Assembly: GCF_009913235.1 (NCBI RefSeq)
Contig: NZ_CP047897.1
Span: 3,161,001-3,225,000 of the forward strand
DNA length: 64,000 bases
Direction of reading: 5' to 3'
From: Nibribacter ruber
GTDB lineage: Bacteria > Bacteroidota > Bacteroidia > Cytophagales > Hymenobacteraceae
In this document: one piece after another, positions 763 through 63,986 of the stretch
Layout: every line of letters starts with the position of its first letter
Position numbering within the stretch: the stretch's first letter is position 1
Program-made: the position numbers and the translations under genes
Notes under the pieces: generated by a model
Databases searched by the model: none
Told to the model about the DNA's origin: nothing
Seen by the model: only the letters and a program-made list of their open reading frames with translations

Positions 763-800
763 CGTTTTCAGCCCATTTCCACCAAAACACCCCAAAAACG
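763..800. repeat. Palindromic repeat copy 1 (divergent member)
   Basis: Diverged copy of the window-wide palindrome, between the divergent M61 and FkbM genes. The left arm reads CGTTTTCAGCCCATTTCC and the right arm ends CCCAAAAACG. It has more mismatches than other copies. Confidence 0.75.
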
Positions 801-842
801 CCTGCCTTTGTTTTCTCCCGGTAGAATCCAGAACTTTACCCC

Positions 843-1592
843 GTGAAATTCTTTCGTAAACTATTGGTCAAGGCGCTCGGGTTTGAGGGCTATCTGCGTC
901 TGGTGAGCCGGATGTACATTATCATGGTGGGCTCGGGCAGAGGGCAGGCCAAGTATCCAGAGCTATTTTTCCTGCGCAGAATCATTCGGCCGGGGTATAC
1001 GTGCCTGGACATTGGCGCCAACCTGGGCTACTATTCTACTTTCTTGTCGAAGCTGGCCGGGCCTACTGGGCAGGTGCTGGCCGTGGAGCCGGTGCCTTTG
1101 TTTGGCAGAATCTGGCAAGACAATGTAAAGGCCAGCGGGGTGGACAACCTTACGTTGTTGCCGTTCGCCTTGGGCGGGGAAAACACCACTATTGAGATGG
1201 GTACGCCCCTGCGCGATGGGCTGGTACACCACGGCATGACCAAAATTGCCAGCAGTGCCCAGGAGCAATATGCCCAAACGTATGAGGTGGAGATGCGCGT
1301 GCCAGATGAACTGTTCGCAGACTTGGAACAACTCCATTTTATAAAGTGCGACGTGGAAGGCTATGAGCACCAAGTGTTTGCCCACCTGCAGGAAACTATA
1401 AAGAAGCACAAGCCGTTGATTCAGACAGAGCTCAATGGGGCAGAGAACCGCAAGAAAGTGGTGGAGATTTTAACCGGTTTAGGCTACGGCGTATACACGT
1501 TAAGCCCGCAACGCACGTTATCTGTCTGCGCGCCCTATGAGATTGACAGCTACCAGGGCGGTGACTTTTACTTTAAACCAAACAAACAGTAG
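843..1592 (+). CDS. FkbM family SAM-dependent methyltransferase
   Basis: A 249-residue methyltransferase of the FkbM family, class I Rossmann fold. The SAM-binding motif I is LDIGANLGYYS (about residues 55-65), followed by an acidic loop VEPVP (about 81-85). The family signature IKCDVEGYE lies near residues 167-175. FkbM enzymes O-methylate hydroxyls of sugars or secondary metabolites; in Bacteroidota they often act on surface glycans, but the substrate here is unknown. It starts with GTG at 843; no better in-frame ATG lies upstream. The next gene starts two bases after its stop, so the two are probably co-transcribed. Confidence 0.85.
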   Translation: MKFFRKLLVKALGFEGYLRLVSRMYIIMVGSGRGQAKYPELFFLRRIIRPGYTCLDIGANLGYYSTFLSKLAGPTGQVLAVEPVPLFGRIWQDNVKASGVDNLTLLPFALGGENTTIEMGTPLRDGLVHHGMTKIASSAQEQYAQTYEVEMRVPDELFADLEQLHFIKCDVEGYEHQVFAHLQETIKKHKPLIQTELNGAENRKKVVEILTGLGYGVYTLSPQRTLSVCAPYEIDSYQGGDFYFKPNKQ

Positions 1593-1594
1593 AC

Positions 1595-1885
1595 TTGAAA
1601 ACCTTCCTTATATTTTTAGCCATTGGTTTTGCACTACGGTACCTTATGCCGTACATCATCAAGTTTGCGCTTAAACTATTTGTGCAGAAGCAAATGCGCA
1701 AGGCGCAGCAATTCACGTACCAAGGCCAGGCCCAGCAACAACGCGCCTATCAGGCCAACGGGCACAGCACGGCTTCTTCTAGCCCCGACGCCGGTAAAAT
1801 AAAGGTAGACTACGTGCCCGAAGAACAGCGCCAGAAGAAAGACTTCCCCGACGGGGAGTACGTGGATTATGAAGAAATAAAATAA
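1595..1885 (+). CDS. DUF4834 family small membrane protein
   Basis: A 96-residue protein with one N-terminal membrane segment (about residues 3-28), a Gln/Ala-rich middle and the C-terminal motif KVDYVPEEQ...GEYVDYEEI, which I recognise as DUF4834, a Bacteroidota family of unknown function. The likely start is TTG at 1595, two bases after the preceding stop, so it is translationally close to the FkbM gene. A terminator follows immediately. Confidence 0.75.
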   Translation: MKTFLIFLAIGFALRYLMPYIIKFALKLFVQKQMRKAQQFTYQGQAQQQRAYQANGHSTASSSPDAGKIKVDYVPEEQRQKKDFPDGEYVDYEEIK

Positions 1886-1899
1886 ACTGATTATCTTTC

Positions 1900-1930
1900 A
1901 AGCCCGATGCTCTCTGCATCGGGCTTTTTT
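1900..1930 (+). terminator. Rho-independent terminator
   Basis: Stem AGCCCGATGC / GCATCGGGCT with a five-base loop, followed by a T-run, directly after the DUF4834 gene. It shows that an ORF extension of the next gene back to 1907 is unlikely. Confidence 0.85.
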
Positions 1931-1945
1931 CTTCTATTAGACGCT

Positions 1946-4375: not shown

Positions 4376-4386
4376 GTAAATTGAGG

Positions 4387-4434
4387 TGCCCCGTTTTTGG
4401 CCTGTTTTCTCATAAATAGGCCAAAAACGGGGCA
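4387..4434. repeat. Palindromic repeat copy 2
   Basis: Palindrome with extended complementary flanks TGCCCCG / CGGGGCA around the TTTTTGGCC...GGCCAAAAA core. It starts 12 bases after the YfhO-like stop codon. An automated start at 4397 for the next gene would translate this repeat. Confidence 0.95.
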
Positions 4435-4456
4435 TTCTTGTGTCTATCCCAATCTA

Positions 4457-5380: not shown

Positions 5381-5443
5381 CTTAGAGTTAGAATACACGT
5401 ACCCGCATTCAGTAACGTAGCCTACCAAAATCAACCTCCCCAT

Positions 5444-5744
5444 TGTCATCCTGAATGGACCATGGTGGCAAACTAGACAGGCTGAAGCAAAACGAACAAC
5501 TTCCGTTTTTGGCCTGTTTTGCGGAAAATAAGCCAAAAACGCCTTTGCTTGCTTCAAGCTTATAGCTTGGAGCTAACAATGGTGCAAGTTTATCAACTTG
5601 CCTACTTCACCATTCAGCAAACTCTGGCAAGTTTGTAAACTTGCTCTAAGATTATCCACAAGTTACAGCTTCGCTCAAACTTGCGGGAGTTGCATTTGGG
5701 TAAACGTCTTTACAACTTACCCACAAGGTCCTTTCAGGATGACA
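5444..5744. mobile_element. Composite non-autonomous element A with terminal inverted repeats
   Basis: A 301 bp segment with ends TGTCATCCTGAATGGACC (left) and, read inward from the right, TGTCATCCTGAAAGGACC, about 25 bp of inverted repeat in all. Inside are palindrome copy 3, the hairpin TTCAAGCTTATAGCTTGGAG, and short palindromes such as GCAAGTTTATCAACTTGC and GCAAGTTTGTAAACTTGC. The same arrangement occurs in the opposite orientation at 36090-36380. It has no coding capacity and no clear target duplication. I infer a MITE-like element. Confidence 0.75.
5504..5541. repeat. Palindromic repeat copy 3 (inside composite element A)
   Basis: Core palindrome TTTTTGGCC...AGCCAAAAACG nested in the larger element. 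The equivalent position of composite element B carries another copy. Confidence 0.92.
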
Positions 5745-5841
5745 GATGAGAGGAAAATTGGCTTACGATGGAAGGATTTCTGCATTCCTGAAAATGCAAT
5801 GCGACATCAATTTCTGATTCATAATTTCTAATTTTTAATTG

Positions 5842-5887
5842 TCTCCGTTTTTGGCTTGTTTCCCAGAAAACAGGCCAAAAACGGAGA
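5842..5887. repeat. Palindromic repeat copy 4
   Basis: Flanks TCTCCG / CGGAGA are complementary and extend the stem. It lies 56 bases before the chosen start of the DUF4230 gene, and an upstream start at 5839 would translate it. Confidence 0.95.
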
Positions 5888-5943
5888 AGTGTAACCTTCG
5901 GCGTGGTTTTCGCTTATCTTGTGGGGTAAACTACTCTAATCTG

Positions 5944-6582: not shown

Positions 6583-6588
6583 CTTTCA

Positions 6589-6738
6589 GATGTGAAGATG
6601 TGGAAGTTTGAAAATGTGAAAATGGCAGCGCTAATAACTTGGTAAACTTCGTTTTTGGCCTGTTTTCTGGAAAACAGGCCAAAAACGAAATTCTGAAATG
6701 GCCATCTTCACATTTCCACATCTCCAAATTTTCAAATC
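6589..6738. repeat. Outer inverted repeat enclosing a palindrome copy
   Basis: Purine-rich arm 6589-6625 (GATGTGAAGATGTGGAAG...) and its imperfect reverse complement at 6700-6738 (...CCACATCTCCAAATTTTC) flank palindrome copy 5 symmetrically. I estimate about 75% match over 38 bp by eye. The right arm reaches into the recX stop codon. Confidence 0.65.
6648..6689. repeat. Palindromic repeat copy 5 (closest to consensus)
   Basis: Near-perfect hairpin TTCGTTTTTGGCCTGTTTTC, TG, then its reverse complement, between the convergent DUF4230 and recX genes. Confidence 0.97.
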
Positions 6739-8257: not shown

Positions 8258-8258
8258 T

Positions 8259-8295
8259 CGTTTTGGCCTGTTTTCCGGAAATCAGGCCAAAAACG
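8259..8295. repeat. Palindromic repeat copy 6
   Basis: Core palindrome with centre CCGG and one T lost from the left T-run. It begins one base after the exporter stop codon. Confidence 0.93.
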
Positions 8296-12625: not shown

Positions 12626-12663
12626 CGTTTTTGGCTTATTTTCCAGAAAAGAAGCCAAAAACG
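12626..12663. repeat. Palindromic repeat copy 7
   Basis: Core with centre CCAG (opposite orientation to the TGG type). Its right-arm end AAAACG doubles as the A-tract of the terminator that follows. Confidence 0.95.
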
Positions 12664-14354: not shown

Positions 14355-14394
14355 CCGTTTTTGGGCTGTTTTCTGGAAAAGAGGCTAAAAACGG
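14355..14394. repeat. Palindromic repeat copy 8
   Basis: CCG / CGG flanked palindrome with a TGG centre in the divergent region between the RarD-like gene and murF-alr. Confidence 0.95.
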
Positions 14395-14517: not shown

Positions 14518-14525
14518 TATATTTG
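14518..14525 (+). promoter_or_regulatory. Bacteroidota-type -7 box for murF-alr
   Basis: TATATTTG matches the TAnnTTTG consensus and lies 15 bases before the ATG at 14541. No convincing -33 TTG at normal spacing. Confidence 0.5.
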
Positions 14526-14540
14526 GTCTTGACTTACGCT

Positions 14541-17015
14541 ATGCCTATGCTCACGCTTCAAGAACTCACCCAAGCTACCGGCGGCTCTGTGGTACAATGG
14601 GCCCAACTCTATCCCATCCAACATCTGCTCACAGACAGCCGAAAACTTGTGAACGCGGCCACGTCGGTGTTCTTCGCCATACGCGGCGATTTCCATGACG
14701 GCCATGACTATGTGGCGGGCTTGTACCAGCAGGGCGTGCGGCAGTTTGTGGTAGAAGATCTGTCTGCGTTCTCTGAGCTGTCTAGCTTCCCAGACGCCAA
14801 CCTTCTGCTGGTGAACAGCGGCGTGAAAGCCCTGCAAGACGTAGCCGCCTACCACCGGGTGCGGTTTCATTTGCCTGTGGTGGCCATCACCGGCAGTAAC
14901 GGCAAAACCATCGTCAAAGAATGGCTGTCCCAGCTGTTGAGTCCCACGGAGCGGGTGGTGAAAAGTCCCAGAAGTTACAATTCCCAGATTGGCGTACCGC
15001 TTTCTGTCTGGCAGATCAATGAGACGCATACCATTGGCGTGTTTGAGGCGGGCATTTCTGAACCCGGCGAAATGGAGAAGCTGGCCAAGGTCATTCAGCC
15101 TACGCTGGGCATCTTCACCAACCTGGGCTCTGCGCACAATGAAGGGTTCAGCTCGCAGGAGCAGAAGCTGGAAGAAAAGCTACTCTTGTTCAGTGGGGTG
15201 AACAAACTCATTTACTGCGCAGACCATGAGCTGGTGCGGCAGGCGGTGCATCACCACAACATATCGGGCTTCACTTGGAGTTTGAAAGGCAACGCCGCCC
15301 ATGTGCAGGTCAAAATCAAGAGTACCTCCACCCACAAGACCAAGATTGCCTATACCTACCAAGACCAGGAGCATTCCCTCACGCTGCCCTTCACCGATGA
15401 TGCCTCTCTGGAAAATGCCCTGCACTGCTTAACGCTCTTGCTGCGCCTGGGCCTGCCCCCCGAAAAACTAGCCCCCGCCTTTGAGCGCCTCACGCCCGTG
15501 GCCATGCGCCTGGAACGCAAAGAGGCCATCAATGGCTGCTACGTCATTGATGACACGTACAACAATGACCTGGCCGGCCTACGCATTGCCCTGGACGTAC
15601 TGGGCCAACAGGCCCGCCGCGGACGGAAAACCTTGATTCTCTCTGATTTGCTGGAAGCCGGCTTAGAGGAAAAGACGCTGTACCAGCAAGTAGCCTATGA
15701 CGTGGCCGCGCACGGCGTAGACCGGGTTATTGGCATAGGCGATGTCATCAGTCGGCACCAGCATTTGTTTCCATCGGGCAGTGAATTCTACTTCGGGACA
15801 GATTCTTTTCTGGGGCAGCTGCGTCCGGAGACCTTCCGGCAGGAGACCATTCTGGTGAAGGGCGCGCGCGTGTTTCAGTTTGAGAAAGTGGTGGCCGCTT
15901 TGCAACAGCAGGTGCACGGCACGGTGCTGGAAGTTAACCTGGACGCGCTGGTGCACAACCTCAACTTCTACCGTTCCAAAGTATCTACCCAGACCAAGAT
16001 CATGGTCATGGTGAAGGCCTTCGCGTACGGCGCGGGGTCTTATGAGATTGCCAACCTCTTGCAGTTCCACCGCGTGGATTACCTGGCCGTGGCCTACACA
16101 GATGAGGGCGTGGCCTTGCGCGAGCACGGCATCACCCTGCCCATCATGGTCATGAACCCCAGCCCAGACAGCTTCTTAAAGATGCAGCAGTACAACCTGG
16201 AGCCCGAGATTTACTCACCAGACCTGCTGCATCGGTTTTTAGACTATTTCCCGGAAAACAGCCCAAAAACGCCGCGCATCCACTTGAAGCTGGACACCGG
16301 CATGCACCGCTTGGGCTTTGACCCTGCAGAACTCACTGAAGCCCTGGAAGTGCTGGTGCAGGTGCCCCACGTACAGGTAGAAAGCGTCTTCAGTCATTTG
16401 GCTGGCGCCGATGAAGCCTTGTACAATGACTTCTCTAGACAGCAAATCTCTGCCTTTGAGCAAATGGCGCAGCAGGTAGAAAGTACCCTGGGGTATGCAG
16501 TGACCAAGCATATTTTGAATTCGGCGGGAATCATACGCTTTGGGCAGGAGGCCGCCTTTGACATGGTGCGGTTGGGCATCGGGTTGTACGGCATAGAGTC
16601 CTCGGGCATGGAGCAAGGGGGCCTTCAAACCGTGGGGCAGCTCAAAACGACCATCTCCCAGGTGAAGCGGGTAGCCAAAGGAGACACCGTGGGCTACAGC
16701 CGCAAAGGCGTGGCAGATACGGACAAAGTCACGGCCACCATTGCCATTGGCTACGCAGACGGCTATGACCGAAGGTTTGGCAACGGCGTAGGGGAGGTGC
16801 TGGTGAACGGACGGCGCGTGCCCATCATGGGCAACATCTGCATGGATATGTGCATGATAGACGTGACCGGTTTAGACGTGCAGGCCGGGGAAGAAGTAAT
16901 CGTGTTCGGGAAAGAACTACCCTTGACCGAGCTCTCTAGCCGCATTGGCACCATTCCCTATGAACTGCTCACCAACGTGAGCACCCGCGTGAAACGTGTG
17001 TTTTACAACGAGTAG
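14541..17015 (+). CDS. Bifunctional MurF (UDP-MurNAc-tripeptide:D-Ala-D-Ala ligase) / alanine racemase
   Basis: An 824-residue fusion typical of Bacteroidota. The N-terminal half is MurF: the ATP loop ITGSNGKT lies near residues 115-122. It adds D-Ala-D-Ala to the peptidoglycan precursor. From about residue 455 follows alanine racemase: the PLP lysine is in VMVKAFAYGAGS (near 492) and the catalytic Tyr in TVGYSRKG (near 718). It makes D-Ala for the first half's substrate. Residues 565-577 (RFLDYFPENSPKT) are exactly 13 codons of the palindromic repeat (16233-16271), just before the conserved strand IHLKLDTGMHRLGF. The active-site residues are intact, so the protein is probably functional. Confidence 0.93.
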   Translation: MPMLTLQELTQATGGSVVQWAQLYPIQHLLTDSRKLVNAATSVFFAIRGDFHDGHDYVAGLYQQGVRQFVVEDLSAFSELSSFPDANLLLVNSGVKALQDVAAYHRVRFHLPVVAITGSNGKTIVKEWLSQLLSPTERVVKSPRSYNSQIGVPLSVWQINETHTIGVFEAGISEPGEMEKLAKVIQPTLGIFTNLGSAHNEGFSSQEQKLEEKLLLFSGVNKLIYCADHELVRQAVHHHNISGFTWSLKGNAAHVQVKIKSTSTHKTKIAYTYQDQEHSLTLPFTDDASLENALHCLTLLLRLGLPPEKLAPAFERLTPVAMRLERKEAINGCYVIDDTYNNDLAGLRIALDVLGQQARRGRKTLILSDLLEAGLEEKTLYQQVAYDVAAHGVDRVIGIGDVISRHQHLFPSGSEFYFGTDSFLGQLRPETFRQETILVKGARVFQFEKVVAALQQQVHGTVLEVNLDALVHNLNFYRSKVSTQTKIMVMVKAFAYGAGSYEIANLLQFHRVDYLAVAYTDEGVALREHGITLPIMVMNPSPDSFLKMQQYNLEPEIYSPDLLHRFLDYFPENSPKTPRIHLKLDTGMHRLGFDPAELTEALEVLVQVPHVQVESVFSHLAGADEALYNDFSRQQISAFEQMAQQVESTLGYAVTKHILNSAGIIRFGQEAAFDMVRLGIGLYGIESSGMEQGGLQTVGQLKTTISQVKRVAKGDTVGYSRKGVADTDKVTATIAIGYADGYDRRFGNGVGEVLVNGRRVPIMGNICMDMCMIDVTGLDVQAGEEVIVFGKELPLTELSSRIGTIPYELLTNVSTRVKRVFYNE
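16233..16271. repeat. Palindromic repeat copy 9, in frame inside murF-alr
   Basis: The only copy inside a conserved gene. Left CGGTTTTTAGACTATTTC, centre CCG, right GAAAACAGCCCAAAAACG. It is 39 bases, starting exactly on a codon boundary and read without a stop. Confidence 0.85.
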
Positions 17016-17528: not shown

Positions 17529-17566
17529 CATTTTTAGCCTATTTCCCAGAAAACAAGCCAAAAACG
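17529..17566. repeat. Palindromic repeat copy 10
   Basis: Diverged left arm (CATTTTTAGCCTATTTCC), intact right arm, centre CAG. It lies between convergent genes, ten bases before a terminator hairpin. Confidence 0.9.
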
Positions 17567-21101: not shown

Positions 21102-21141
21102 CCGTTTTTGGCCTTTTTTCTGGAAAAGAGGCCAAAAACGG
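21102..21141. repeat. Palindromic repeat copy 11
   Basis: CCG / CGG flanked copy with centre TGG, eight bases after the feoB stop. Confidence 0.95.
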
Positions 21142-23078: not shown

Positions 23079-23116
23079 CGTTTTTGGCCTTATTTCTGGA
23101 AAACAGGTCAAAAACG
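23079..23116. repeat. Palindromic repeat copy 12, inside the nusA-infB operon
   Basis: Copy between the co-directional nusA and infB genes, centre TGG. If the operon is transcribed through, the hairpin becomes part of the mRNA. Confidence 0.93.
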
Positions 23117-23200
23117 TGAAAACGTACCGGCAAACCCACACCATACTTAAAGAGTCACGTAATCAAAACAGAACCAAATAAAAACAACAGCATATTGAGC

Positions 23201-26200
23201 ATGTCAGAAGAAAGAACGATGAGGCTTAAACAGGTAGCCACCACCTTGAACATCAGTACCTCTACCGTAGTGGAGTTCCTGGAGAAAAAGGGGATGGATG
23301 TCGAGAATAAACCTACTTCAAAGATTACCCAAGAGCAGTTCAATATGCTGTCGAAAGAGTTTGCCTCGTCCATGCAAGCCAAGGCAGAGGCAGCCGAGTT
23401 GAACATTGGGAAAAAACCAGCCGGGGCAGAAGAGAAGCCAGAACCTAAGAAAGCCCAGGACCCGGAGCCCGAAATGCTCATCAAGAACAGTGCCCCGGCC
23501 CGTCCGGCGGCAGAGCCAGAGAAACCAGCCGCACCGGCACCAGCAGCCCCTAAAGCCGCTGAGCCAGCGCCTGCACCGGCCGCTAGTGCCTCTTTGCCAG
23601 GCATAAAGGTATTGGGCAAGATTGACCTGGATGCCAAAGGTCGTCCCGTGCCAAAACCTGCTCCTGCCCCCGCGCCTGCTCCGGCAGCACAGGTGGCCGA
23701 GAAATCAACAGAAGCACCCGCTCCGGCCCCGGCCGCAGAGAAACCTGCCGCTCCGGCGGCTCCTGCTCCAGCCCCGGTAACACCAGCGGCCTCTGCGCCA
23801 GAAAAACCAGCTACTCCAGCGCCTGCTCCTGCAGCACCGGCCGCCCCGGCAGCTCCCGTTGCAGAGAAGCCAGCTGCCCCGGCAGCCGCCGCACCACAGG
23901 CCCCGGTAACACCGCCGGCACCTGCGCCAGCTCCGGCCCCAGCGGCTGAAGCAGCCAAGCCAGCAGCACCAGCCCCACAGGCTCCGGCAGCGCCGGTAAC
24001 TCCGGCTGCACCCGTTGCGCCAGAGGCTTCTGCCCCAGATGCTGATACCACGCCGCAAGGCACCATCAAAGCACAGGCAGACCAGTTGAAAGGGTTGACA
24101 GTGTTGGGTAAGATTGAATTACCCGTGAGTGGTGGTCGTGGCAAAGGCGGTAAGCCGGTAGCCTCCTCAGATGAGCGCCGTAGAGGCAATCAGCCGGGTG
24201 GACAAGGCGGCCAAGGCCAAGACAAAAAGAAACGCAAGCGCATTGAAGTGCCTAAAACAGGTGCTCCAGGTGCTGCCAATACTAATCCTAATGCACCACA
24301 ACCGCACCGCGCTGGTGACAGAGCCAACAGCACCCGTCCTTTGGGAACAGGCCAGGCGGCTAACCGTCAACCAGGCGCCGGTGGACCAGGTCGTCCAGGC
24401 GGTGGCTACCAAGGCAACCGTCCAGGTGGCGGCGGCCGTCCAGGCGGACCGGCAGCCCCTCGCGCTGAGTTAACGGATAAGGAAATCCAGGATCAGATTA
24501 AGGCCACGTTGGCCCGCTTGAGCGGTGGCAAAGGCGGTAACCAAGGAAACCGTTCCAAATACCGTAGAGAGAAACGCTCTGCCGTGGCAGATGCCGCAGA
24601 TGAGCGCAGAATGCAGGAACAATTAGAGTCTAAGATTCTAAAAGTAACTGAGTTCGTGTCTGCTAATGACTTGGCTGCCTTGATGGACGTGAGCGTCAAC
24701 GAGGTGATCAAGACCTGTATGAACCTGGGTATGTTCGTATCCATCAACCAGCGTCTGGATGCCGAGGCCATCACCATCATTGCAGATGAGTTTGGCTATG
24801 ACATTCAGTTCGCTTCGGCTGAGGAAGAAGAAAATACTGGTATTGAGGAAGTAGACGCTGAAGAAGATCTATTGCCACGCGCTCCAATTGTGACCATCAT
24901 GGGTCACGTGGATCATGGTAAAACCTCTTTGCTGGATTACATAAGAAGAACCAAGGTAACCGCCGGTGAGGCCGGGGGTATCACCCAGCACATTGGCGCC
25001 TACCAGGTAACCACTGAGGCCGGGAAAGACATCACCTTCCTGGATACACCGGGTCACGAGGCCTTTACCGCCATGCGTGCCCGTGGTGCCAAGGTAACAG
25101 ACGTTGTTATCATTGTGGTTGCAGCTGATGATAACGTGATGCCACAAACCAAGGAAGCCTTGAACCACGCGCAAGCGGCGGGCTCTCCAATCGTGATTGC
25201 CATTAACAAGATTGACAAGCCAACGGCCAACCCAGACAAGATTCGTGAGGAGCTTGCCCAGTTGAACGTACTGGTAGAAGAGTGGGGTGGTAAATATCAA
25301 AGCCAGGAAATATCCGCTAAGACCGGACAAGGCATTGACGAACTCCTTGATAAAGTATTGCTAGAGGCCGAATTACTGGAGTTGAAAGCCAACCCAGACC
25401 GCCGTGCCGTTGGTACGGTGATTGAAGCCGCCCTGGATAAAGGTAGAGGCTACGTAGCCACGGTATTGGTACAGACCGGTACGTTGAAGATTGGTGACAT
25501 CCTGGTTGCTGGTTCACACCACGGCCGCGTGAAAGCCATGACTGATGAACTGGGCAAACGCCATAAGACTGCCGGACCATCCATGCCGATTCAGGTATTG
25601 GGTATTGACGGCGCTCCGCAGGCGGGTGACAAGTTTGTGGTAATGGAAACGGAGCGTGAAGCCCGTGAGATTGCCGTGAACCGTCAGCAGTTGCAGCGTG
25701 AGCAGAGCATGCGCACCAAGAAACACATCACCCTGGATGAAATCGGTCGTCGTTTGGCCATCGGTACATTTAAGGAGTTGAACGTGATTGTACGCGGTGA
25801 CGTGGATGGTTCTGTAGAGGCACTTTCTGACTCATTATTGAAACTATCGACTGAGGAAGTACAGGTGAACATCTTGTCCAAAGGGGTTGGTCAAATCTCT
25901 GAGACGGACGTATTGCTGGCCTCGGCCTCAGATGCGATCATCATTGGTTTCCAGGTGAGACCTTCTACCAACGCCCGTAAGCTGGCAGAGCAGGAAGAGA
26001 TTGACATCCGTCTGTACTCTATCATCTACAACGCCATCAATGAGTTGAAAGACGCCATGGAAGGTATGTTGGCGCCAACGGTGAAAGAAGAAGTAACCGC
26101 CAACGTAGAAGTACGCGAGGTGTTCAAAATCACCAAGGTGGGTACCATTGCCGGCTGTATGGTGACGGATGGTGTGATTACGCGTAACTCTAAGATCAGA

Positions 26201-26383
26201 ATTGTACGTGACGGCATTGTGGTTCACTCCGGTGAAATCCTGGCCCTGAAGCGTTTCAAAGACGATGCGTCTGAAGTGCGTACCGGCTACGAATGCGGTA
26301 TCAGCATCAAGAACTTCAATGACCTACAACAAGGTGACGTGATTGAAGCCTACGAAGAGCGCGAAATCAAGCGTACTCTGTAA
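23201..26383 (+). CDS. infB: Translation initiation factor IF-2
   Basis: 1060 residues from ATG 23201. An N-terminal helical domain ([22 protein letters not shown]) is followed by a very long Ala/Pro-rich linker (about residues 80-290), a Gly/Arg-rich basic stretch (about 310-440) and the GTPase core. G1 is GHVDHGKT (568-575), G3 DTPGHEAF, G4 NKID. Domains II-IV follow. It places initiator tRNA on the 30S subunit. The linker is repetitive at DNA level and is low-complexity rather than a mistake. Confidence 0.96.
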
Positions 26384-26486: not shown

Positions 26487-26524
26487 CGTTTTTAGGCTAT
26501 TTCCTGGAAAACATACCAAAAACG
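26487..26524. repeat. Palindromic repeat copy 13
   Basis: Copy with a diverged right arm (ACATACCAAAAACG), centre TGG, opening the gene-poor kilobase after infB. Confidence 0.9.
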
Positions 26525-26529: not shown

Positions 26530-27170
26530 CTCTCCGTAGCGTGGTTCCGCGGAACGATCTAGTCTCACAGAACTTCCCGCCTCAAATTTAATGGACAGAC
26601 CTCTGCAACAGGAGCCTGCCTTTCCTTTACCTGCGCCAGGGAGACTAGCCTGTTTGGATTATAGAGTTCTTGTCGCATGGAGGCACGTCGTTCCACGGAA
26701 CGGCGCTACAACCGGCGGTCTTTCTTGGCCGCAAGATTGGGCCGGTCCCGTGCCAACAAATAGAAAAGCAGTGCGCAGCACGCATGCCTCTGCACCGACA
26801 GGAACTGCTATTACTAGTAACCAGCTAAACCAGCCAACAAACCCATGCAGGATTGGAACCGAAACCAGTCCTGGTCCTGAGCGCCTCTGGTGTTTGTGCG
26901 CCGCGGCCAGCGGCGGCAGGGACAAAGTCCCACAAACAACAGCAGTGCGAAGGGACAGGACGGGGCCCCGCGGCCGTGAGCGCTTACCAGAAGAAATGAA
27001 ACAAGGCTGTGAGTGCGCACCGGAAGACGCGGCCACTACAAAGGGAAGGCCAACGGAAGTACGCAACAGCGAAAGTCATGGAAGTAACACCCTCGCTATA
27101 GAAAGAGAACCAGCCAGCCCAAGTCTTCAAGTGAAAACAACCAACAACGCCAAGCCAAGGTGAAGGAAGA
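26530..27170. other. Structured, probably non-coding intergenic region
   Basis: A 640-base stretch bounded on both sides by palindrome copies. It is richer in inverted repeats than any other gap: GTTCCGCGGAAC (26544-26555), CGTTCC-AC-GGAACG (26689-26702), CGGGGCCCCG (26961-26970). It also has a possible three-way junction at 26891-26938 (TGTTTGT / ACAAACA enclosing hairpins GCCGC/GCGGC and GGGAC/GTCCC). An open frame on the plus strand (26591-27163) and others on the minus strand exist, but their translations are Pro/Arg/Thr-rich with no recognisable domain. I favour an RNA gene or a decayed element. Confidence 0.45.
26891..26938. ncRNA. Possible three-way-junction RNA structure
   Basis: The closing stem TGTTTGT (26891-26897) pairs with ACAAACA (26932-26938). 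Inside are hairpins 26900-26914 and 26919-26931, the latter GGGAC-AAA-GTCCC. Strand is undetermined, and there is no known RNA family that I can name. Confidence 0.3.
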
Positions 27171-27177: not shown

Positions 27178-27216
27178 CGTTTTTGGCGTATTTTCTAGAA
27201 AACAGGCTAAAAACAG
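27178..27216. repeat. Palindromic repeat copy 14
   Basis: Diverged copy (right arm ends AAAAACAG) at the right edge of the structured gap, centre TAG. Confidence 0.88.
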
Positions 27217-28903: not shown

Positions 28904-28949
28904 CTCCCGTTTTTAGCCTGTTTTCTGGAAAAGAGGCCAAAAACGGGAG
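28904..28949. repeat. Palindromic repeat copy 15
   Basis: Extended complementary flanks CTCCCG / CGGGAG, centre TGG. Confidence 0.96.
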
Positions 28950-30983: not shown

Positions 30984-31022
30984 CCGTTTTTGGCTTGTTT
31001 TCGTAAAAATAGGTCAAAACCG
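30984..31022. repeat. Palindromic repeat copy 16
   Basis: Diverged centre (TTTTCGTAAAAA) and right arm (GGTCAAAACCG), five bases after the dut stop. Confidence 0.88.
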
Positions 31023-36089: not shown

Positions 36090-36380
36090 TGTCATCCTGA
36101 AAGGATCTTGTGGGCGAACTGTAACAATGTTGGCAAAAAGATACCTCCCGCAAGTTTTTAACTTGTGGGTACCATAAAGCAAGTTTTCAACTTGCGAGAA
36201 TACCAAACACAGGCCCACGCAAGTTGAAAACTTGCGCCATGATTAGCTCCAAGCTGCAAGCTTGAAGCAGGGATAGGGGAAAGCGTTTTTTGGCTGATTT
36301 CCAGAAAATAAGCCAAAAACGAATTCCTGCGCTTAGCCTACGTCTGTCTAGCTTGCCCACAAGATACTTTCAGGATGACA
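36090..36380. mobile_element. Composite non-autonomous element B with terminal inverted repeats
   Basis: A 291 bp element, inverted relative to element A (5444-5744). The left end TGTCATCCTGAAAGGATC pairs with the right end read inward TGTCATCCTGAAAGTATC. Internal parts: GCAAGTTTTCAACTTGC and GCAAGTTGAAAACTTGC, AGCTCCAAGCTGCAAGCTTG, and palindrome copy 17. The terminal repeat continues into flanking CTCCCC / GGGGAG. It has no coding capacity. Confidence 0.78.
36284..36321. repeat. Palindromic repeat copy 17 (inside composite element B)
   Basis: Core palindrome with centre CAG, at the same internal position as the copy in element A once orientation is reversed. Confidence 0.92.
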
Positions 36381-36515: not shown

Positions 36516-36553
36516 CGTTTTTGGCCTGTTTTTCAGAAAATAGCCTAAAAACG
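36516..36553. repeat. Palindromic repeat copy 18
   Basis: Copy with centre CAG and a right arm AGCCTAAAAACG, 12 bases beyond the stop codon of the RsmI-like gene. Confidence 0.93.
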
Positions 36554-38072: not shown

Positions 38073-38110
38073 CGTTTTTTGCCTGTTTTACAGAAAACAG
38101 ATGAATTTCG
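38073..38110. repeat. Palindromic repeat copy 19, right arm broken, overlapping a gene end
   Basis: Left arm CGTTTTTTGCCTGTTTTA is intact, but only ACAGAAAACAG of the right half follows. The overlap covers the last four codons and the stop of the PH-like membrane protein gene. Confidence 0.75.
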
Positions 38111-38666
38111 TTTTTACAGAGTAAGCGACGCGGGGCCAAAGGGCTTTTAATTGTTCCAGGTCAATGAGCAATGAAGTGATAGTCAACTGGCTTCCGTCGG
38201 CTAGGGTAAGCGTCAAATATTTGTAAGGGCTCCAGAAGAAACTGTTGGAACTGCACTTGGTCTCCTGCACCGCGCGCACTTGGGCAGCATCTAAGTAATA
38301 CCGATGGCCCGGCCGTAACAACAAGGCTACTCCGCTTTTGGCATCCAGTTCCAGCGCGCTTTCCTGCTCAAACCGCCAGTACTGAAAATGCACAAAAAGA
38401 GTGGGCAAAGAAAACAGCAACAACATTGTGCCAATCCCCGCAGCTAAGCCTTTCTCCAGCAACGTATCCGTCTGCGCTCTGGGTATCAAACTCAGAATAG
38501 AAGCGCCCAGCCATGTTCCAATGGCAGACCAGAACACCATCCCGAATTGACGTGCCGGGGCCAGGTAGTAGACTTTGCTCTTGCGCGAGAAGACCTTGAG
38601 TAGGAAGCCCGCCACGTAATGCGCCAGTACCAGAAACGCTGTTATCTTTAAAATAGTCCCTATCAT
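38088..38666 (-). CDS. Hypothetical PH-domain-like membrane protein
   Basis: 192 residues. Membrane segments near residues 3-22, 43-62 and 74-96 are followed by a soluble part LRPGHRYYLDAAQVRAVQETKC...LTLTLADGSQLTITSLLI that resembles bacterial PH-like modules. I do not know the family. The C-terminal ICFL and the stop codon come from palindrome copy 19, so the original end may have been longer. It is followed at 40 bases by the hydrolase gene. Confidence 0.65.
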   Translation of the reverse strand: MIGTILKITAFLVLAHYVAGFLLKVFSRKSKVYYLAPARQFGMVFWSAIGTWLGASILSLIPRAQTDTLLEKGLAAGIGTMLLLFSLPTLFVHFQYWRFEQESALELDAKSGVALLLRPGHRYYLDAAQVRAVQETKCSSNSFFWSPYKYLTLTLADGSQLTITSLLIDLEQLKALWPRVAYSVKTKFICFL

Positions 38667-38674: not shown

Positions 38675-38712
38675 CGTTTTTGGGCTATTTTCCAGAAAAC
38701 AGGCAAAAAACG
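38675..38712. repeat. Palindromic repeat copy 20
   Basis: Copy with centre CAG between pdxJ and the PH-like gene, both on the minus strand. Confidence 0.94.
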
Positions 38713-40558: not shown

Positions 40559-40604
40559 TTTCCGTTTTTGGCCTGTTTTCCAGAAAAGAGGCCAAAAACG
40601 GAAA
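40559..40604. repeat. Palindromic repeat copy 21
   Basis: Extended complementary flanks TTTCCG / CGGAAA with centre CAG, between the CvpA and PabA/TrpG genes. Confidence 0.96.
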
Positions 40605-50153: not shown

Positions 50154-50198
50154 CGGAAAAGCCGATGGTGACACACACCATCGGCTTTTCCGTTTTTT
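50154..50198 (+). terminator. Terminator fused to palindrome copy 22
   Basis: CGGAAAAGCCGATGGTG / CACCATCGGCTTTTCCG, a 17 bp stem. The T-run that follows (TTTTTT) is the left-arm T-run of the palindrome. Confidence 0.9.
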
Positions 50199-50228
50199 GC
50201 CTATTTTCACCAAAACAAGCCAAAAACG
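50191..50228. repeat. Palindromic repeat copy 22, abutting the RluA start
   Basis: Centre CACC, left T-run shared with the upstream terminator. The right arm ends two bases before the RluA-family ATG at 50231, in the place where a ribosome-binding site would lie. Confidence 0.9.
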
Positions 50229-50230
50229 AC

Positions 50231-51292
50231 ATGATTTCCTCTTTGGACCAGGAAGATGAAACCGCCGGCAGCCTTGACTCTGACGATCTTTTTGAACACC
50301 ACCGCATTGTAGTAGACAAGGGCCAGGCGCTTTTACGGGTAGACAAGTTCCTGATGGACCGCCTACCCAACGTAACCCGCAACAAGCTGCAGGAGGCCAT
50401 CAAAGCGGAGTCTGTGCGGGTGAACGGGCTGGCCATCAAGTCTTCTTACAAGGTGAAGCCGCTGGACGTAATTACCATCACCCTGGCAGATCCGCCCCGT
50501 GACACAGACGTGGTACCAGAGGACATTCCCCTGAACATTGTCTTTGAGGACGAGGACCTGTTGATTGTGAACAAGCCAGCCGGCATGGTGGTGCACCCGG
50601 CATATAACAACTGGTCTGGGACGCTGGTGAATGGATTGGTGTTTTACCTGCAAAACCTGCCCACCAGCCGCAACGGCGAGATTAGACCAGGATTGGTGCA
50701 TCGCATTGACAAAGACACGTCTGGGCTGCTGGTAATAGCCAAATCTGAGCTGGCCATGGCACACCTGGCCCGGCAGTTCTATGACCACTCCATTGAGCGC
50801 ACGTATTACGCCTTGGTTTGGGGCGTGCCAGCCCAAGAGAAAGGCACCATTACGGGCCATATTGGGAGAAGTGCCAAAGACCGGAAAGTAATGGCCGTGT
50901 ACCCAGAGGGAGACTTTGGAAAACACGCCGTGACGCATTACCAGTTACTGGAGAACTTTACCTATTGCAGCTTGCTCAAATGTAACCTAGAAACCGGACG
51001 CACGCACCAGATCAGAGCGCATATGAAGTACCTGGGGCACCCGTTGTTCAATGACGGTACCTACGGCGGAGACAAAATCATGAAAGGACAGCAGACAGGC
51101 TCTTACAAGGCGTTTGTGCAGAATACGTTTGATGCCCTCCCGCGCCAGGCCTTGCATGCCAAATCTTTAGGCTTTATTCACCCCAGAACTCATGAGTTTT
51201 TGCAGTTTGAGTCTGAACTGCCAGAAGACTTTCTGGCGGGCTTGGCCAAATGGCGCCAGTACGGCAAGATGCTTCAGGAAAGGGCTCAGTAA
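50231..51292 (+). CDS. RluA family pseudouridine synthase
   Basis: 353 residues from ATG 50231. A longer frame to 50165 would translate the palindrome and is rejected. N-terminal S4 domain (about 30-95, including LRVDKFLMDRLPNVTRNKL), then the catalytic core with LVHRIDKDTSGLLVIAK (catalytic D160) and GRTHQIRAHMKYLGHPL. It makes pseudouridine in 23S rRNA or tRNA; the target site cannot be read from sequence. The leader is unusual: stop of the Skp gene, terminator, palindrome, start. Confidence 0.9.
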   Translation: MISSLDQEDETAGSLDSDDLFEHHRIVVDKGQALLRVDKFLMDRLPNVTRNKLQEAIKAESVRVNGLAIKSSYKVKPLDVITITLADPPRDTDVVPEDIPLNIVFEDEDLLIVNKPAGMVVHPAYNNWSGTLVNGLVFYLQNLPTSRNGEIRPGLVHRIDKDTSGLLVIAKSELAMAHLARQFYDHSIERTYYALVWGVPAQEKGTITGHIGRSAKDRKVMAVYPEGDFGKHAVTHYQLLENFTYCSLLKCNLETGRTHQIRAHMKYLGHPLFNDGTYGGDKIMKGQQTGSYKAFVQNTFDALPRQALHAKSLGFIHPRTHEFLQFESELPEDFLAGLAKWRQYGKMLQERAQ

Positions 51293-51300: not shown

Positions 51301-51338
51301 CGTTTTTAGCCAGTTTTCCAGAAAAGAAGCCAAAAACG
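51301..51338. repeat. Palindromic repeat copy 23
   Basis: Centre CAG, nine bases after the RluA stop and eight bases before a terminator hairpin, between convergent genes. Confidence 0.94.
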
Positions 51339-58470: not shown

Positions 58471-58510
58471 CCGTTTTTAGGCACTTTTCTGGGAAACAGG
58501 CCAAAAACGG
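58471..58510. repeat. Palindromic repeat copy 24
   Basis: CCG / CGG flanked copy with centre TGG and a diverged left arm (AGGCACTTTTC). Confidence 0.93.
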
Positions 58511-58688: not shown

Positions 58689-58710
58689 CAAATATTAGGC
58701 AAGGTTTTGC

Positions 58711-58718: not shown

Positions 58719-58739
58719 TGGGATAAAATTGAAGAACAC

Positions 58740-60125: not shown

Positions 60126-60134
60126 ATACTAAGC

Positions 60135-60176
60135 AAAGGGCCGCATTGGTTGGAAAGAACTATTGCGGCCTTTTTT
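60135..60176 (+). terminator. Terminator of glmM
   Basis: GGCCGCA / TGCGGCC stem with a wide loop followed by a six-T run. Confidence 0.8.
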
Positions 60177-60259
60177 CCATTACACCCTATATCTTGCATT
60201 TGTATGCACCCTTCTACTTGTTTCACCTGTTGCTGTTGCCTTAATTAAGACCTATCACC

Positions 60260-61402
60260 ATGCGAGTTTACCTGGACAATGCGGCTACCACGCCCTTAGA
60301 CAAAGAAGTTTTTGACACCATGGCTCCCTTCATGCTGGAGCATTACGGAAATCCTTCCTCCATTCACTCGCACGGCAGGCAGGTGCGCGCCGCCATTGAA
60401 GGCGCCCGCAAAACAGTAGCCGGTTTGCTCAACACGTCGCCCGCAGAGATTTTCTTCACGTCTGGCGGAACCGAGGCAGACAACGCGGCCATTATCTGCA
60501 CCATTCGCAGTTTGGGTATTCAGCATGCCATCACGTCTCCTTTAGAGCACCATGCGGTGTTGCACTCCTTTGAGTCTCTGGAGAAGCGCGGCGAAGTACA
60601 GGTGACCATGCTGCGCGTAGATGAGAAAGGCACCCTGGACCTGGCCCATCTGGAAGAGATTCTTGCCAGCCAGCCCCGCACCTTTGTCTCTGTCATGCAC
60701 GCCAACAATGAAATAGGGAACCTGAATGACATCCAGACCATTGCCGACATCTGCAAGAAGTATGACGCCGTGCTGCACTCAGACACGGTGCAGACCATGG
60801 GCCACTACCAGCATGACGTCCAAACTCTAGGATTAAACTTTCTGGTAGGCTCAGCGCATAAGTTCCACGGGCCAAAAGGCGTAGGCTTCATTTATGTAGA
60901 CTCGGCTATTAAAATCCATCCCTTGATCCAGGGTGGGTCACAGGAGCGCAACATGCGCGGCGGTACAGAGAACGTGTACGGCATCATTGGCCTGGCCAAG
61001 GCCCTGGAGATCGCCTATAGAGACATGGACGAGCATCACCGCCACATCCAGAGCTTAAAAGACCGCATGATTTCTAAACTGCGCGAGCAGATAGAGGACG
61101 TGCAGTTCAACGGCCTTTCTGCAGAAGCTGACAAGAGCTTGTACACCGTTCTGAATGTTAGCCTGCCAGCCTCAGAGATGAACGAGATGCTGCTGTTCAA
61201 CCTGGACATCAACAAAATCTCTGCCTCGGGCGGAAGCGCCTGCACCAGCGGCGTAGACCTGGGTTCACACGTGCTTCGCGGCATGAACGCAGACATGAAC
61301 CGTGGTAACGTGCGCTTCTCGTTCAGCAAATACAACACTGCAGAAGAGATTGACTACACCGTGGCCACGCTGGCCAAACTCTATCAGAAGGAAACGGTGT
61401 AA
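60260..61402 (+). CDS. Cysteine desulfurase family protein (NifS/IscS-like)
   Basis: 380 residues, class V aminotransferase fold. DNAATTPLDKEV at the start, PLP lysine K201 in SAHKFHGPKG, and the sulfur-carrying cysteine C328 in SGGSACTSG. It takes sulfur from cysteine for iron-sulfur clusters or tRNA thiolation. No IscU or SufBCD genes are next to it. It sits between its own terminator and the glmM terminator. Confidence 0.88.
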   Translation: MRVYLDNAATTPLDKEVFDTMAPFMLEHYGNPSSIHSHGRQVRAAIEGARKTVAGLLNTSPAEIFFTSGGTEADNAAIICTIRSLGIQHAITSPLEHHAVLHSFESLEKRGEVQVTMLRVDEKGTLDLAHLEEILASQPRTFVSVMHANNEIGNLNDIQTIADICKKYDAVLHSDTVQTMGHYQHDVQTLGLNFLVGSAHKFHGPKGVGFIYVDSAIKIHPLIQGGSQERNMRGGTENVYGIIGLAKALEIAYRDMDEHHRHIQSLKDRMISKLREQIEDVQFNGLSAEADKSLYTVLNVSLPASEMNEMLLFNLDINKISASGGSACTSGVDLGSHVLRGMNADMNRGNVRFSFSKYNTAEEIDYTVATLAKLYQKETV

Positions 61403-61422
61403 ACCAAGACCCAAATATCCTC

Positions 61423-61457
61423 AAAAGCCCCACCTCAAACGTGGGGCTTTTCGTTTT
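61423..61457 (+). terminator. Terminator fused to palindrome copy 25
   Basis: AAAAGCCCCAC / GTGGGGCTTTT stem with a seven-base loop; the T-run continues into CGTTTTT, the left arm of the palindrome. Confidence 0.9.
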
Positions 61458-61489
61458 TAGGCTATTTTCGCCAAAACAAGCCAAAAACG
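61452..61489. repeat. Palindromic repeat copy 25
   Basis: Copy with centre GCC, fused on its left side to the terminator of the cysteine desulfurase gene. Confidence 0.93.
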
Positions 61490-61845
61490 ATCTACAACGC
61501 CCCAGGATGCTTTTGATAAGAAAAGAACAATTTTAAGCGTTAGAATAATGGCCTTTTCTTGCGTTGTGCTTGTAAAAATGCAACCTTACCATAAGTGCGG
61601 GTTGTTGTGTTTCTATACCCGTTTACTACCTTGTATATCAAAGACGTCAGTCTAAAGGCCGTGTGAAGGCAGGCCAACTTTCACGGCAGACCGCCGTACA
61701 ACAAAGGTTTTGTGGAAGACTTATGCCGCCAGCAGCGCATAGTATCTGCCTATACAAGAAACAACCGGTACATTTATTAAATGTTTTTCCAGCCTGCTGA
61801 TTTTTTTAAACAGTCGGCTTTGGCTTTACTTGAACCACCACTAGC
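61490..61845. other. Intergenic region upstream of the histidine kinase
   Basis: A 356-base gap with no gene that I can support. It has no clear TAnnTTTG box close to the kinase start. The last 60 bases are T-rich. No repeat of the families described above is present. Confidence 0.5.
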
Positions 61846-63786
61846 ATGAACTTAGAGATAGAAAGTACTTCCACTCCTAAGGCTATTAACCAGACAGAAG
61901 ATAGGTACAGACTTTTAATTGAAAGCATTACAGACTATGCCATCTTCATGCTAGATGAAACCGGGCACGTGTCTACCTGGAACGCCGGAGCCAAGAAGAT
62001 AAAGCAGTATGACGCTGAGGATATCATTGGCAAGCATTTCTCTACCTTTTACACGCCAGACGCCATTGCCAGAGACTATCCGGCGTATGAGCTGCGGGAG
62101 GCGCAGGCCCGGGGCAGGTTTGAAGACGAAGGCTGGCGCGTACGCAAAGACGGGTCCATGTTCTGGGCCAACGTCATCATTACACCCATCTATAGAGAAG
62201 ACAAGAGTCTGCTGGGTTTCTCCAAAATCACCCGAGACCTCTCTGAAAGAAAGAAGGCCGAGGATGATCTGTACAAGGCCTATGAAGAAGTAAAGGAAAG
62301 CGAAGAACGTTTCAGGCTGCTGGTGGAAGGCGTGACAGACTACGCCATCTTCATGCTGGACCCTGCCGGGCGCGTAGCCACCTGGAACGAGGGCGCCAAA
62401 AAGATCAAAGGGTATGAGCCCCATGAAATCATTGGCCAGTACTTCTCAAAATTCTACGGCAAGGAGGCGGTGAAAACCGGTTTCCCGGCCTATGAACTCA
62501 GCGAGGCCAAAGCCAAAGGCCGCTTTGAAGACGAAGGCTGGCGCTACAGAAAAGACGGCACCGCCTTTTGGGCCAATGTGGTGATCACGGCCATTTACAA
62601 CAGCAAGAAAGAACTGATCGGGTTCTCCAAAATCACCCGCGACCTCACCGAGAAAAAGCAACTGGAAGAACAACTGTTCCGGACGCACGAAGAACTGCGC
62701 GAGAGCGAGGAAAAATCGCGCCTGCTCATTGACAGCGTGCAAGACTACGCCATTCTCATGTTAAACCCAGACGGGTTGATCATAAGCTGGAACGCCGGCG
62801 CCGAGCGCATCAAAGGCTACAAGGCCAAAGAAGTCCTGGGCAAGCACTTTTCCACTTTTTACTCCAGAGAAGCCATTGAACGGGGGTTTCCGCAGTTTGA
62901 GCTGAGCAAGGCCATCAGAGACGGTAGGTTTGAGGACGAGGGCTGGCGCATACGAAAAGACGGAACTGCATTTTGGGCCAATGTGGTCATCACCACCATC
63001 TACAGTTCAGATAACCGGTTGCTGGGCTTCGCCAAAATCACCCGGGACCTGACGGAGCGCCGTCGCAACGAAGAGCTCATGCAGAAAAACCAGGACCTGG
63101 TACGCATCAACAACGACCTGGATAATTTTGTGTACACGGCCTCCCATGACTTGAAAGCGCCTATTTCTAACCTGGAGGGACTGCTGATGGCTCTGCTGGA
63201 AGATTTAGGGCCTGAAAAGGAGGCACACCAGGCGGTGATCTCCATGATGCAACGGTCCATTACTACCCTCAAAAAAGTGATCACAGACCTGGCAGACATC
63301 ATTAAGCTGCAGCAGAGCAACGACGAGGTAGAGAACGTTTCCCTGGAGAGCCTGCTGGATGAGGTGAAAGCCAATTTGCAGGAATCCATAAAAACCACCA
63401 ACGCCGAGATTATTTTTGACGCCTCTGGGTTTGACAAATTAGCCTACTCCAGAAAAAACCTGCGCAGCATCTTGTACAACCTGGTTTCCAACGCCCTTAA
63501 ATACGCAGAGCCAGGGCGCGCGCCAATCATCAAAATCACCACTTTTGAGTCCCAGTCAGGGGATAAGCTGATTTCTGTAGAGGATAATGGCTTGGGCATA
63601 CCGGCGCACCAGACAAGCAAAATCTTTTCCATGTACAAGCGGGTGCATGACCATGTAGAAGGCTCCGGCATTGGCTTGTACCTGGTCAAAAAGATTCTGG
63701 ACAACTCAGGTGACCACATTGAGGTGAAAAGCGATGTAGGAACAGGCACCACGTTCACCATCTATTTCAGAAATAAACGTAGATAG
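61846..63786 (+). CDS. Three-PAS sensor histidine kinase
   Basis: 646 residues, no membrane segment, so cytoplasmic sensing is likely. Three PAS-PAC units at about 19-142, 155-278 and 290-412 are very similar, each with a RFEDEGWR.RKDG...FWANV segment and a GF.KITRDL end. The HisKA-type dimer region has H434 in TASHDLKAPISN; the ATPase part shows N in LVSNALKYAEPG, then VEDNGLGIP and GSGIGLYLVKKI. No response regulator gene is near, so it is an orphan kinase in this window. The repeats suggest internal duplication. Confidence 0.9.
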   Translation: MNLEIESTSTPKAINQTEDRYRLLIESITDYAIFMLDETGHVSTWNAGAKKIKQYDAEDIIGKHFSTFYTPDAIARDYPAYELREAQARGRFEDEGWRVRKDGSMFWANVIITPIYREDKSLLGFSKITRDLSERKKAEDDLYKAYEEVKESEERFRLLVEGVTDYAIFMLDPAGRVATWNEGAKKIKGYEPHEIIGQYFSKFYGKEAVKTGFPAYELSEAKAKGRFEDEGWRYRKDGTAFWANVVITAIYNSKKELIGFSKITRDLTEKKQLEEQLFRTHEELRESEEKSRLLIDSVQDYAILMLNPDGLIISWNAGAERIKGYKAKEVLGKHFSTFYSREAIERGFPQFELSKAIRDGRFEDEGWRIRKDGTAFWANVVITTIYSSDNRLLGFAKITRDLTERRRNEELMQKNQDLVRINNDLDNFVYTASHDLKAPISNLEGLLMALLEDLGPEKEAHQAVISMMQRSITTLKKVITDLADIIKLQQSNDEVENVSLESLLDEVKANLQESIKTTNAEIIFDASGFDKLAYSRKNLRSILYNLVSNALKYAEPGRAPIIKITTFESQSGDKLISVEDNGLGIPAHQTSKIFSMYKRVHDHVEGSGIGLYLVKKILDNSGDHIEVKSDVGTGTTFTIYFRNKRR

Positions 63787-63812
63787 GCTCTCCCACATAA
63801 AGCTGTTCCTCA

Positions 63813-63870
63813 TTAAAAGCAGATGCTCCGCCTTGGATATACACAAACCAGGCGGAGCATCTGCTTTTAA
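63813..63870 (+). terminator. Terminator of the histidine kinase gene
   Basis: AAAAGCAGATGCTCCGCC / GGCGGAGCATCTGCTTTT, an 18 bp perfect stem with an 18-base loop, about 30 bases after the stop. Confidence 0.88.
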
Positions 63871-63948
63871 TTTATCAGGCAGTTTGCCTATAGATTAACC
63901 TGATTGCTTAGAACTCTGCAGAGACTAGGAAGTTTATGCTTGACCAGG

Positions 63949-63986
63949 CGTTTTTAGCCTCTTTTCCTGAAAACAGCCCAAAAACG
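63949..63986. repeat. Palindromic repeat copy 26
   Basis: Copy with centre CTG and a diverged right arm (ACAGCCCAAAAACG), near the window end. Confidence 0.92.

Follow-up and report, generated by a model that had tools for sequence, protein, structure and literature searches.

Several classes of short sequence recurring along bacterial chromosomes are available for comparison. In the matS/MatP, parS/ParB and NBS/Noc systems, dyad sites of a dedicated protein, tens in number, are spread over the chromosome, and the DNA uptake sequence (DUS) is a short word. High-copy bacterial palindromes are usually classed as mobile hairpins resembling repetitive extragenic palindromic (REP) elements. The latter are described as high-copy palindromes of 20–40 bp that mainly follow coding regions and occupy the spaces separating unidirectional and convergent genes (PMC3733652), and the DUS of Neisseriaceae as present in thousands of copies, limited to the clade, differing in dialect between species and lying partly in terminators (PMC3630211); the literature compared here consists of parts of these two papers and of PMC2817692. 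The present analysis concerns a 38-bp dyad site that recurs throughout the genome (G000) of Nibribacter ruber, of which the 64,000-nucleotide stretch analyzed (the window) spans positions 3161001-3225000 of a 4.352-Mb contig; the genus is named Rufibacter in all comparisons. Like REP elements and REPINs (paired REP sequences) the Rufibacter site is a high-copy intergenic palindrome within the range of 20–40 bp, but this family behaves otherwise: it has no GTAG/CGTC tag, no close-pair clustering and no flanking of REP-associated tyrosine transposase (RAYT) genes beyond background, shows no compensatory changes in the window's species, and retains its orthologous positions across the genus. Like DUS it is high-copy and clade-restricted with species dialects; unlike DUS it is a 38-bp dyad found almost only between genes and with no known link to transformation. 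Like matS, parS and NBS it forms an array of dyad DNA sites across the chromosome, for which the protein is putative, and it differs from them in numbering ~1,500 or more, usually one per occupied gap, and in having dialects.

A preliminary description of the window had reported about 26 copies of a palindrome of 37–48 bp with a TG or CA centre in both orientations, and had predicted over a thousand copies genome-wide; as a repeat family of this density it is confirmed, on firmer ground than first described, with the length corrected to 38 bp. With 3 or fewer mismatches allowed, the arm CGTTTTTGGCCTGTTTTC has 45 matches in the window (0.17 expected), and these cluster into 26 sites, the number also found at ≤11/36 mismatches. 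Each site consists of the 18-bp arm, two central bases and the reverse-complement 18-bp arm, 38 bp in all; strong conservation in the 26 window copies stops at positions 1 and 38, the palindrome's own ends. Just outside, position 0 is C in 15/26 and position 39 is G in 12/26, columns further out being variable. Most copies have CA or TG at their centre, with both orientations present, and each half of the consensus contains two GTTTT boxes 11 bp apart. When both arms of 187 G000 copies are pooled, a single base accounts for at least 91% at positions 2–7, 9, 12 and 15–16, the more variable positions being 8, 10, 11, 13, 14, 17 and 18. Over the whole genome there are 1,381 + 1,430 arm matches (2 + 4 for the reversed control), and a relaxed pattern of the whole site counts 1,488. 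A 464-kb sample, composed of the window and twenty 20-kb stretches (three picked around Y1 transposase genes), holds 194 copies at 0–11 mismatches out of 36 and only 3 at 12–13, the mismatch level at which the reversed sequence first matches (13); extrapolation gives ~1,800 copies per genome. A 400-kb block, which includes the window, overlaps the first sample by some 90 kb and is not independent of it, holds 187 copies. The copy number of the genome is thus roughly 1,500–1,800.

The site is restricted to the genus Rufibacter. In each of the 16 genus genomes searched the relaxed dyad pattern has between 254 and 1,984 matches (1,229 in G240, a related, site-rich genome), and in each of 84 genomes from five other genera of the family it has 0–4, with at least one in 11 of the 84; the reversed pattern, used as control, matches in 3 of those 84. 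In a set of 241 genomes from the order, the arm at ≤2 mismatches is in clear excess over its reversed control only in the genus, the counts outside being at most 6 versus up to 5, and five genomes of three other genera (60–100 kb each) contain no comparable dyad counts, the genus profile yielding 0–2 matches versus 0–1 for the control. The compared genomes are a drawn sample in which rarer carriers may be missed. Among named records the exact 38-mer has no match, and an exact 23-base part of it occurs in 23 stretches, all from Rufibacter (R. ruber, R. sediminis, R. immobilis, R. roseus and two further species). The plasmid search returned one Rufibacter plasmid place at 81% identity, and a 150-kb sample of the 235-kb plasmid of R. 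tibetensis has 3 matches (scores 35, 28 and 15), far below the chromosomal density of the sampled species, among which there is no R. tibetensis chromosome by name. Viral contigs gave no match to one strict pattern, and no phage place covered 80% of the query. A literature search of incomplete coverage found no published account of Rufibacter repeats. A single good copy in another genus (G262:C1:218562-218597) and four pattern matches in genome G294 possibly reflect transfer or chance.

Positions of the sites are fixed across species. G000 and G240 are syntenic over about 370 kb at 83% identity; among the 186 G000 sites in this block, 126 align one-to-one with a G240 site, another 25 lie near one in the same region, 13 lack a G240 counterpart and 22 are unmappable, and only 5 of the 168 G240 sites lack a counterpart in G000. 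Of the 18 copies recorded as missing from either genome, at least 2 are diverged copies below threshold, and none of the listed alignments of these 18 shows a clean insertion with target duplication. In the aligned pairs 11 columns (4–6, 9, 15–16, 23–24, 33–35) are 97–100% identical, 12 are at 83–92% and 15 at 63–77%, compared with 76% in the flanks (gaps excluded); 15 of the 38 columns are near the flanks' level of identity. The aligned sites are direct in 86 cases, flipped in 24 and tied in 16; inversion between orthologs was considered and gave no clear sign, 24 of the 126 matching better when flipped. Comparison of G000 with eight more distant species (76–77% identity; 125 orthologous gap comparisons, 11–19 per species) shows that 79 gaps are occupied in both, 5 in G000 only, 6 in the other species only and 35 in neither (p 1.7e-19, a value that overstates independence because the same few gaps are reused across related species). 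Distance to the stop codon is likewise kept, with a median difference of 5 bp and a rank correlation of 0.56 over 52 comparisons, a few of which are off by hundreds of bases.

Within these fixed places the spelling of the site differs from species to species. Profiles refined within each species diverge, and the well-sampled species have their own consensus, the half-consensus (written by eye from base frequencies) being CGTTTTTGGCCTGTTTTC in both G000 and G240, CGTTTTcGGscTCaTTTC in G252 (135 sites in 260 kb) and CGTTTaGGGgCTsTTTTT in G243 (122 sites in 240 kb); G242 and G244 have looser profiles with positions 6–7 mixed (104 and 110 sites). All profiles were started from the G000 or the genus-mean pattern, a procedure that would hide differences between species rather than create them. 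Site density in the sampled stretches is 0.4–0.8 per kb, samples of 40–60 kb giving rough profiles only, and the sharp dialects have an information content of ~45–50 bits. The dialect letters are carried by the orthologous sites themselves (7–13 single pairs tabulated in each of four distant species): at sites shared with G000, G252 has C for G at position 13 and A for T at position 14, each in 9/16 arms, and G243 has A for T at position 6 in 10/14 arms and G for T at position 7 in 11/14.

In the window's species the two arms vary independently, and the hairpin is therefore not what selection keeps there. Among 188 G000 copies the pairs 8/31, 10/29, 11/28, 13/26 and 17/22 are complementary in 57, 55, 55, 39 and 60%, compared with 55, 54, 57, 42 and 65% expected; with G240 included, pair 13/26 falls below expectation (28% vs 40%, z -4.4). 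Real sites fold no better than arm-swapped chimeras in G000 (z +1.7) or G240 (z +2.1). The flanks beyond the 38 bp, an internal control of the complementarity test, do pair above chance in G000. At the centre, self-complementary dinucleotides are avoided: they occur in only 33/187 sites vs 67 expected (G000), 41/170 vs 59.5 (G240), 14/134 vs 58 (G252) and 6/121 vs 40 (G243), and less often than expected also in larger samples of G242 (17% vs 27%) and G244 (14% vs 26%) and, mostly weakly, in six smaller samples of 24–34 sites. The preferred centre is CA/TG in G000, G240 and G252 and CC/GG or AG/CT in G243, and when arms are oriented by their centre a strong and a weak arm emerge in G243 and G252, with hardly any difference in G000 and G240. 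Replichore polarity of the centre, looked for by eye, gave nothing clear.

Placement relative to genes was determined with a home-made gene caller that misses genes, and the counts are therefore approximate. Of 188 G000 copies 6 could not be placed; among the remaining 182, 170 are intergenic and 12 intragenic, in agreement with the mostly intergenic placement near stop codons given in the preliminary description, to which the exceptions in the window are the sites at 16234, 38073 and 50191. Five of the 12 intragenic copies lie in one 7-kb stretch of the sample (L016 4245-11118), where the called genes may be wrong or the stretch unusual. In the 400-kb block a site occupies 41/48 convergent, 86/153 tandem and 23/47 divergent gaps, and the numbers of gaps with zero, one and two sites (98, 129 and 21) are more even than Poisson; within tandem gaps 60 of 92 copies are closer to the upstream stop than to the downstream start. 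Sites in the 400 kb are on average 2.1 kb and at minimum 113 bp apart, with no clusters or alternating pairs of the bacterial interspersed mosaic element (BIME) type. Regular spacing was evaluated and set aside: variance over mean of 10-kb counts is 0.50 vs 0.75 for gap-permuted placement in G000, mildly more even, and 0.64 vs 0.71 in G240, where it is not, and sites less than 500 bp apart are scarcer than expected (12 vs 22 in G000, 7 vs 14 in G240); because the gene caller misses genes, this result is not relied on.

The pattern leads us to prefer, with confidence evenly divided for and against, the reading that the family is a genome-wide array of double-stranded sites for a putative dimeric DNA-binding protein that has come to differ in specificity from one species to another. 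Each copy would present, as double-stranded DNA, a pair of 18-bp half-sites separated by two central base pairs, on which a sequence-specific dimer would dock, or alternatively a dimer of dimers, since each half has two GTTTT boxes 11 bp apart. Most suitable intergenic gaps would retain about one site, those flanked by convergent genes most often, and the array would probably act in cis, either as a chromosome anchor or as an insulator between transcription units. Specificity of the protein would have drifted between species with the sites following in place, giving rise to the dialects, and a minority of sites would also have been recruited to form the top of a terminator-like hairpin. Fixed positions, independent arms in the window's species and a species-wise shift of the consensus together make up the pattern expected of sites of a co-evolving DNA reader, a phenomenon that to our knowledge is otherwise known on comparable scale only from DNA uptake sequences. 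Copy number, genus restriction, constraint, fixed positions, dialects and independent arms in the window's species are shown by the data; we infer protein binding and the dimeric state from the sequences, and the function of binding likewise. A nucleoid-protein site, one of the roles proposed in the preliminary description, is the part of that interpretation that has survived best, as a site for which the binding protein is putative. The broader proposal, advanced tentatively and with somewhat more doubt than belief, is that of genus-wide chromosome marking, in which an operator-like 38-bp dyad in most gaps would serve a putative reader, and many hundreds of orthologous sites per genome would have been respelled together in each species while staying put. 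If this were true, bacteria would possess an insulator or anchor code that is written between genes across the whole genome and co-evolves with its reader; the species-specific 38-mers offer concrete bait with which to find that reader, dialect swaps serving as specificity controls, and finding it would show what the marking of most intergenic gaps does for the chromosome.

Several observations weigh against an array of sites for a single dimeric protein. The ~45–50 bits of the sharp dialects far exceed the ~12 bits estimated as enough for addressing. The candidate proteins examined yielded no reader: among 60 family genomes, 14 of them from the genus, neither HU (PF00216; 1–2 matches per Rufibacter genome, 1–3 elsewhere) nor ParB (PF02195; one per Rufibacter genome, 0–2 elsewhere) has a genus-specific extra copy, and serine recombinases are patchy and not genus-wide in the same 60 genomes, tyrosine recombinases and a large serine recombinase of G000 (L206) not having been searched; a 213-amino-acid serine recombinase of G000 has no match in G245 and a best match of 29–45% identity elsewhere in the genus. 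Real sites fold better than chimeras in G242 (z -4.5), G244 (-6.2) and G243 (-2.8), the value for G252 being -1.6, and pairs 6/33 and 7/32 covary in G242 and G244 (z 2.7–4.0 for all sites together, rising to as much as 5.6 in the better half), a covariation that a single homodimer does not explain; G252 has arm matching at 7/32 (z 3.1–3.2). Something matches the two outer boxes in species other than the window's; a pair of paralogous readers, or correction of palindromes by template switching, are guesses at how. The asymmetry of the centre, together with that of the arms in G243 and G252, suggests a polarity that would be superfluous in a plain homodimer site.

The main rival is DNA uptake signalling, in which a DUS-like self-recognition sequence of natural transformation would build up its copies by preferential uptake and recombination while its dialects follow the receptor; we consider it unlikely. 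The 38-bp dyad of ~45–50 bits is much larger than a DUS, and the low count on the R. tibetensis plasmid is a point in favour of uptake. Clade restriction, hundreds to thousands of copies, species dialects and an association with intergenic places and terminators all resemble what the part of PMC3630211 compared here describes for DUS, but intragenic positions, called common there, account for only 12/182 copies. The REP- or MITE-like (miniature inverted-repeat transposable element) nature suggested in the preliminary description, by which a REP/REPIN-like palindrome spread by RAYT, a Y1 transposase, would later have been domesticated in place, is quite improbable and fails most tests in the window's species. 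Its intergenic position and size are those of REP, and 15 of the 16 genus genomes have at least one Y1_Tnp match (45 in all). The three Y1_Tnp genes of G000 found by whole-genome search all lie outside the window. Flanking of Y1 genes by the palindrome does not exceed that of other genes: only 1 of the 31 Y1 loci examined has sites on its two sides no more than 150 bp away, compared with 11.5% of 304 ordinary G000 genes. Site-rich G240 has no Y1 match, no unpaired GTAG or CGTC-type tag is present at the site end in the 26 window copies, arm compensation is lacking in G000 and G240, orthologous positions are kept, and the listed absent-copy alignments contain no clean insertion with target duplication. 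RAYT mobilization is thus unsupported both by the flank test and by presence across the genus. The one doubly flanked gene (L003 1325-2111, in G000) has a dyad site 39 bp upstream and another 120 bp downstream, the upstream one being enclosed by a 10-bp flanking stem, after which comes a T-run.

That the site is instead an RNA 3'-end element, a transcribed hairpin that terminates transcription or protects mRNA, we regard as decidedly improbable, although stop-codon proximity and the high occupancy of convergent gaps argue for it, as do the matched arms of G242 and G244 (and of G243, judged by folding) and the 25/188 copies (~13%) in which the inverted repeat runs on into the flanks by 4 bp or more, up to 14 bp (~2.2 expected). 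Twelve of 16 aligned extended G000 sites keep their extension in G240, partly with different letters (changes in shared extensions are 15 double and 0 single, a count conditioned on pairing in both species and hence not used as evidence). On the other side, compensation within the site is lacking in the window's species, 23/47 divergent gaps are also occupied, and a T-rich stretch adjoins only 10/25 extended and 45/163 other copies, which makes the terminator link modest; the intrinsic-terminator combination of compensating stem and U-tract is not seen for the family as a whole. Nor does the site overall substitute for ordinary terminators, which are about equally common in gaps with and without it (convergent 23/41 vs 7/11; tandem 19/76 vs 22/72). 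We read the flank extensions as co-option by terminators of part of the copies, so that the terminator partner proposed in the preliminary description fits a minority of copies, extended and in some cases terminator-like, and does not fit the family. Least probable by far is a recombinase-type site, with two half-sites around a 2-bp crossover kept asymmetric, a layout that we take to be like that of serine-integrase sites. Avoidance of self-complementary centres and the change of the favoured centre pair with dialect would suit it; the patchy occurrence and low identity of serine recombinases in the genus (a search that did not extend to tyrosine recombinases) and the mostly kept orientation of orthologous sites do not, and active sites in such numbers would be expected to be highly unstable. 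Table 1 lists the window copies.

Table 1. Positions of the 38-bp dyad sites in the window
Element	Position	Strand	Remarks	Basis
38-bp dyad site	763..800	.	diverged copy	arm match
38-bp dyad site	4392..4429	.	inverted repeat continues 5 bp into flanks	
38-bp dyad site	5504..5541	.	no counterpart found at same place in G240	
38-bp dyad site	5846..5883	.	inverted repeat continues 4 bp into flanks	
38-bp dyad site	6650..6687	.	both arms are the exact consensus	
38-bp dyad site	8258..8295	.		
38-bp dyad site	12626..12663	.		
38-bp dyad site	14356..14393	.		
38-bp dyad site	16234..16271	.	within open reading frame (ORF) 14523-17015	
38-bp dyad site	17529..17566	.		
38-bp dyad site	21103..21140	.		
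38-bp dyad site	23079..23116	.		
38-bp dyad site	26487..26524	.		
38-bp dyad site	27178..27215	.		
38-bp dyad site	28908..28945	.	inverted repeat continues 4 bp into flanks	
38-bp dyad site	30985..31022	.		
38-bp dyad site	36284..36321	.		
38-bp dyad site	36516..36553	.		
38-bp dyad site	38073..38110	.	right arm degenerate; overlaps stop-codon end of ORF 38088-38666 (-)	
38-bp dyad site	38675..38712	.		
38-bp dyad site	40563..40600	.	inverted repeat continues 4 bp into flanks	
38-bp dyad site	50191..50228	.	in first codons of longest reading of ORF 50165-51292 (start codon uncertain)	
38-bp dyad site	51301..51338	.		
38-bp dyad site	58472..58509	.		
38-bp dyad site	61452..61489	.		
38-bp dyad site	63949..63986	.		

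The window contains other repeats as well. A second multicopy repeat of ~300 bp (26771-27080) recurs at no fewer than 17 other places in G000, at 80–89% identity among the matches listed; G240 has weaker matches, and a ~63-bp core (26942-27004) is found at 85–90% in G243, G245 and G251, again among the matches listed. The ORF overlapping this repeat has no Pfam match and the repeat has no Rfam match, and an Rfam scan of the window gave no match at gathering score. Short degenerate GC-rich repeats occupy positions 23503-24038 within the long ORF 23195-26383, and three direct repeats with a 405-bp period lie at 61897-63050 within ORF 61846-63786.

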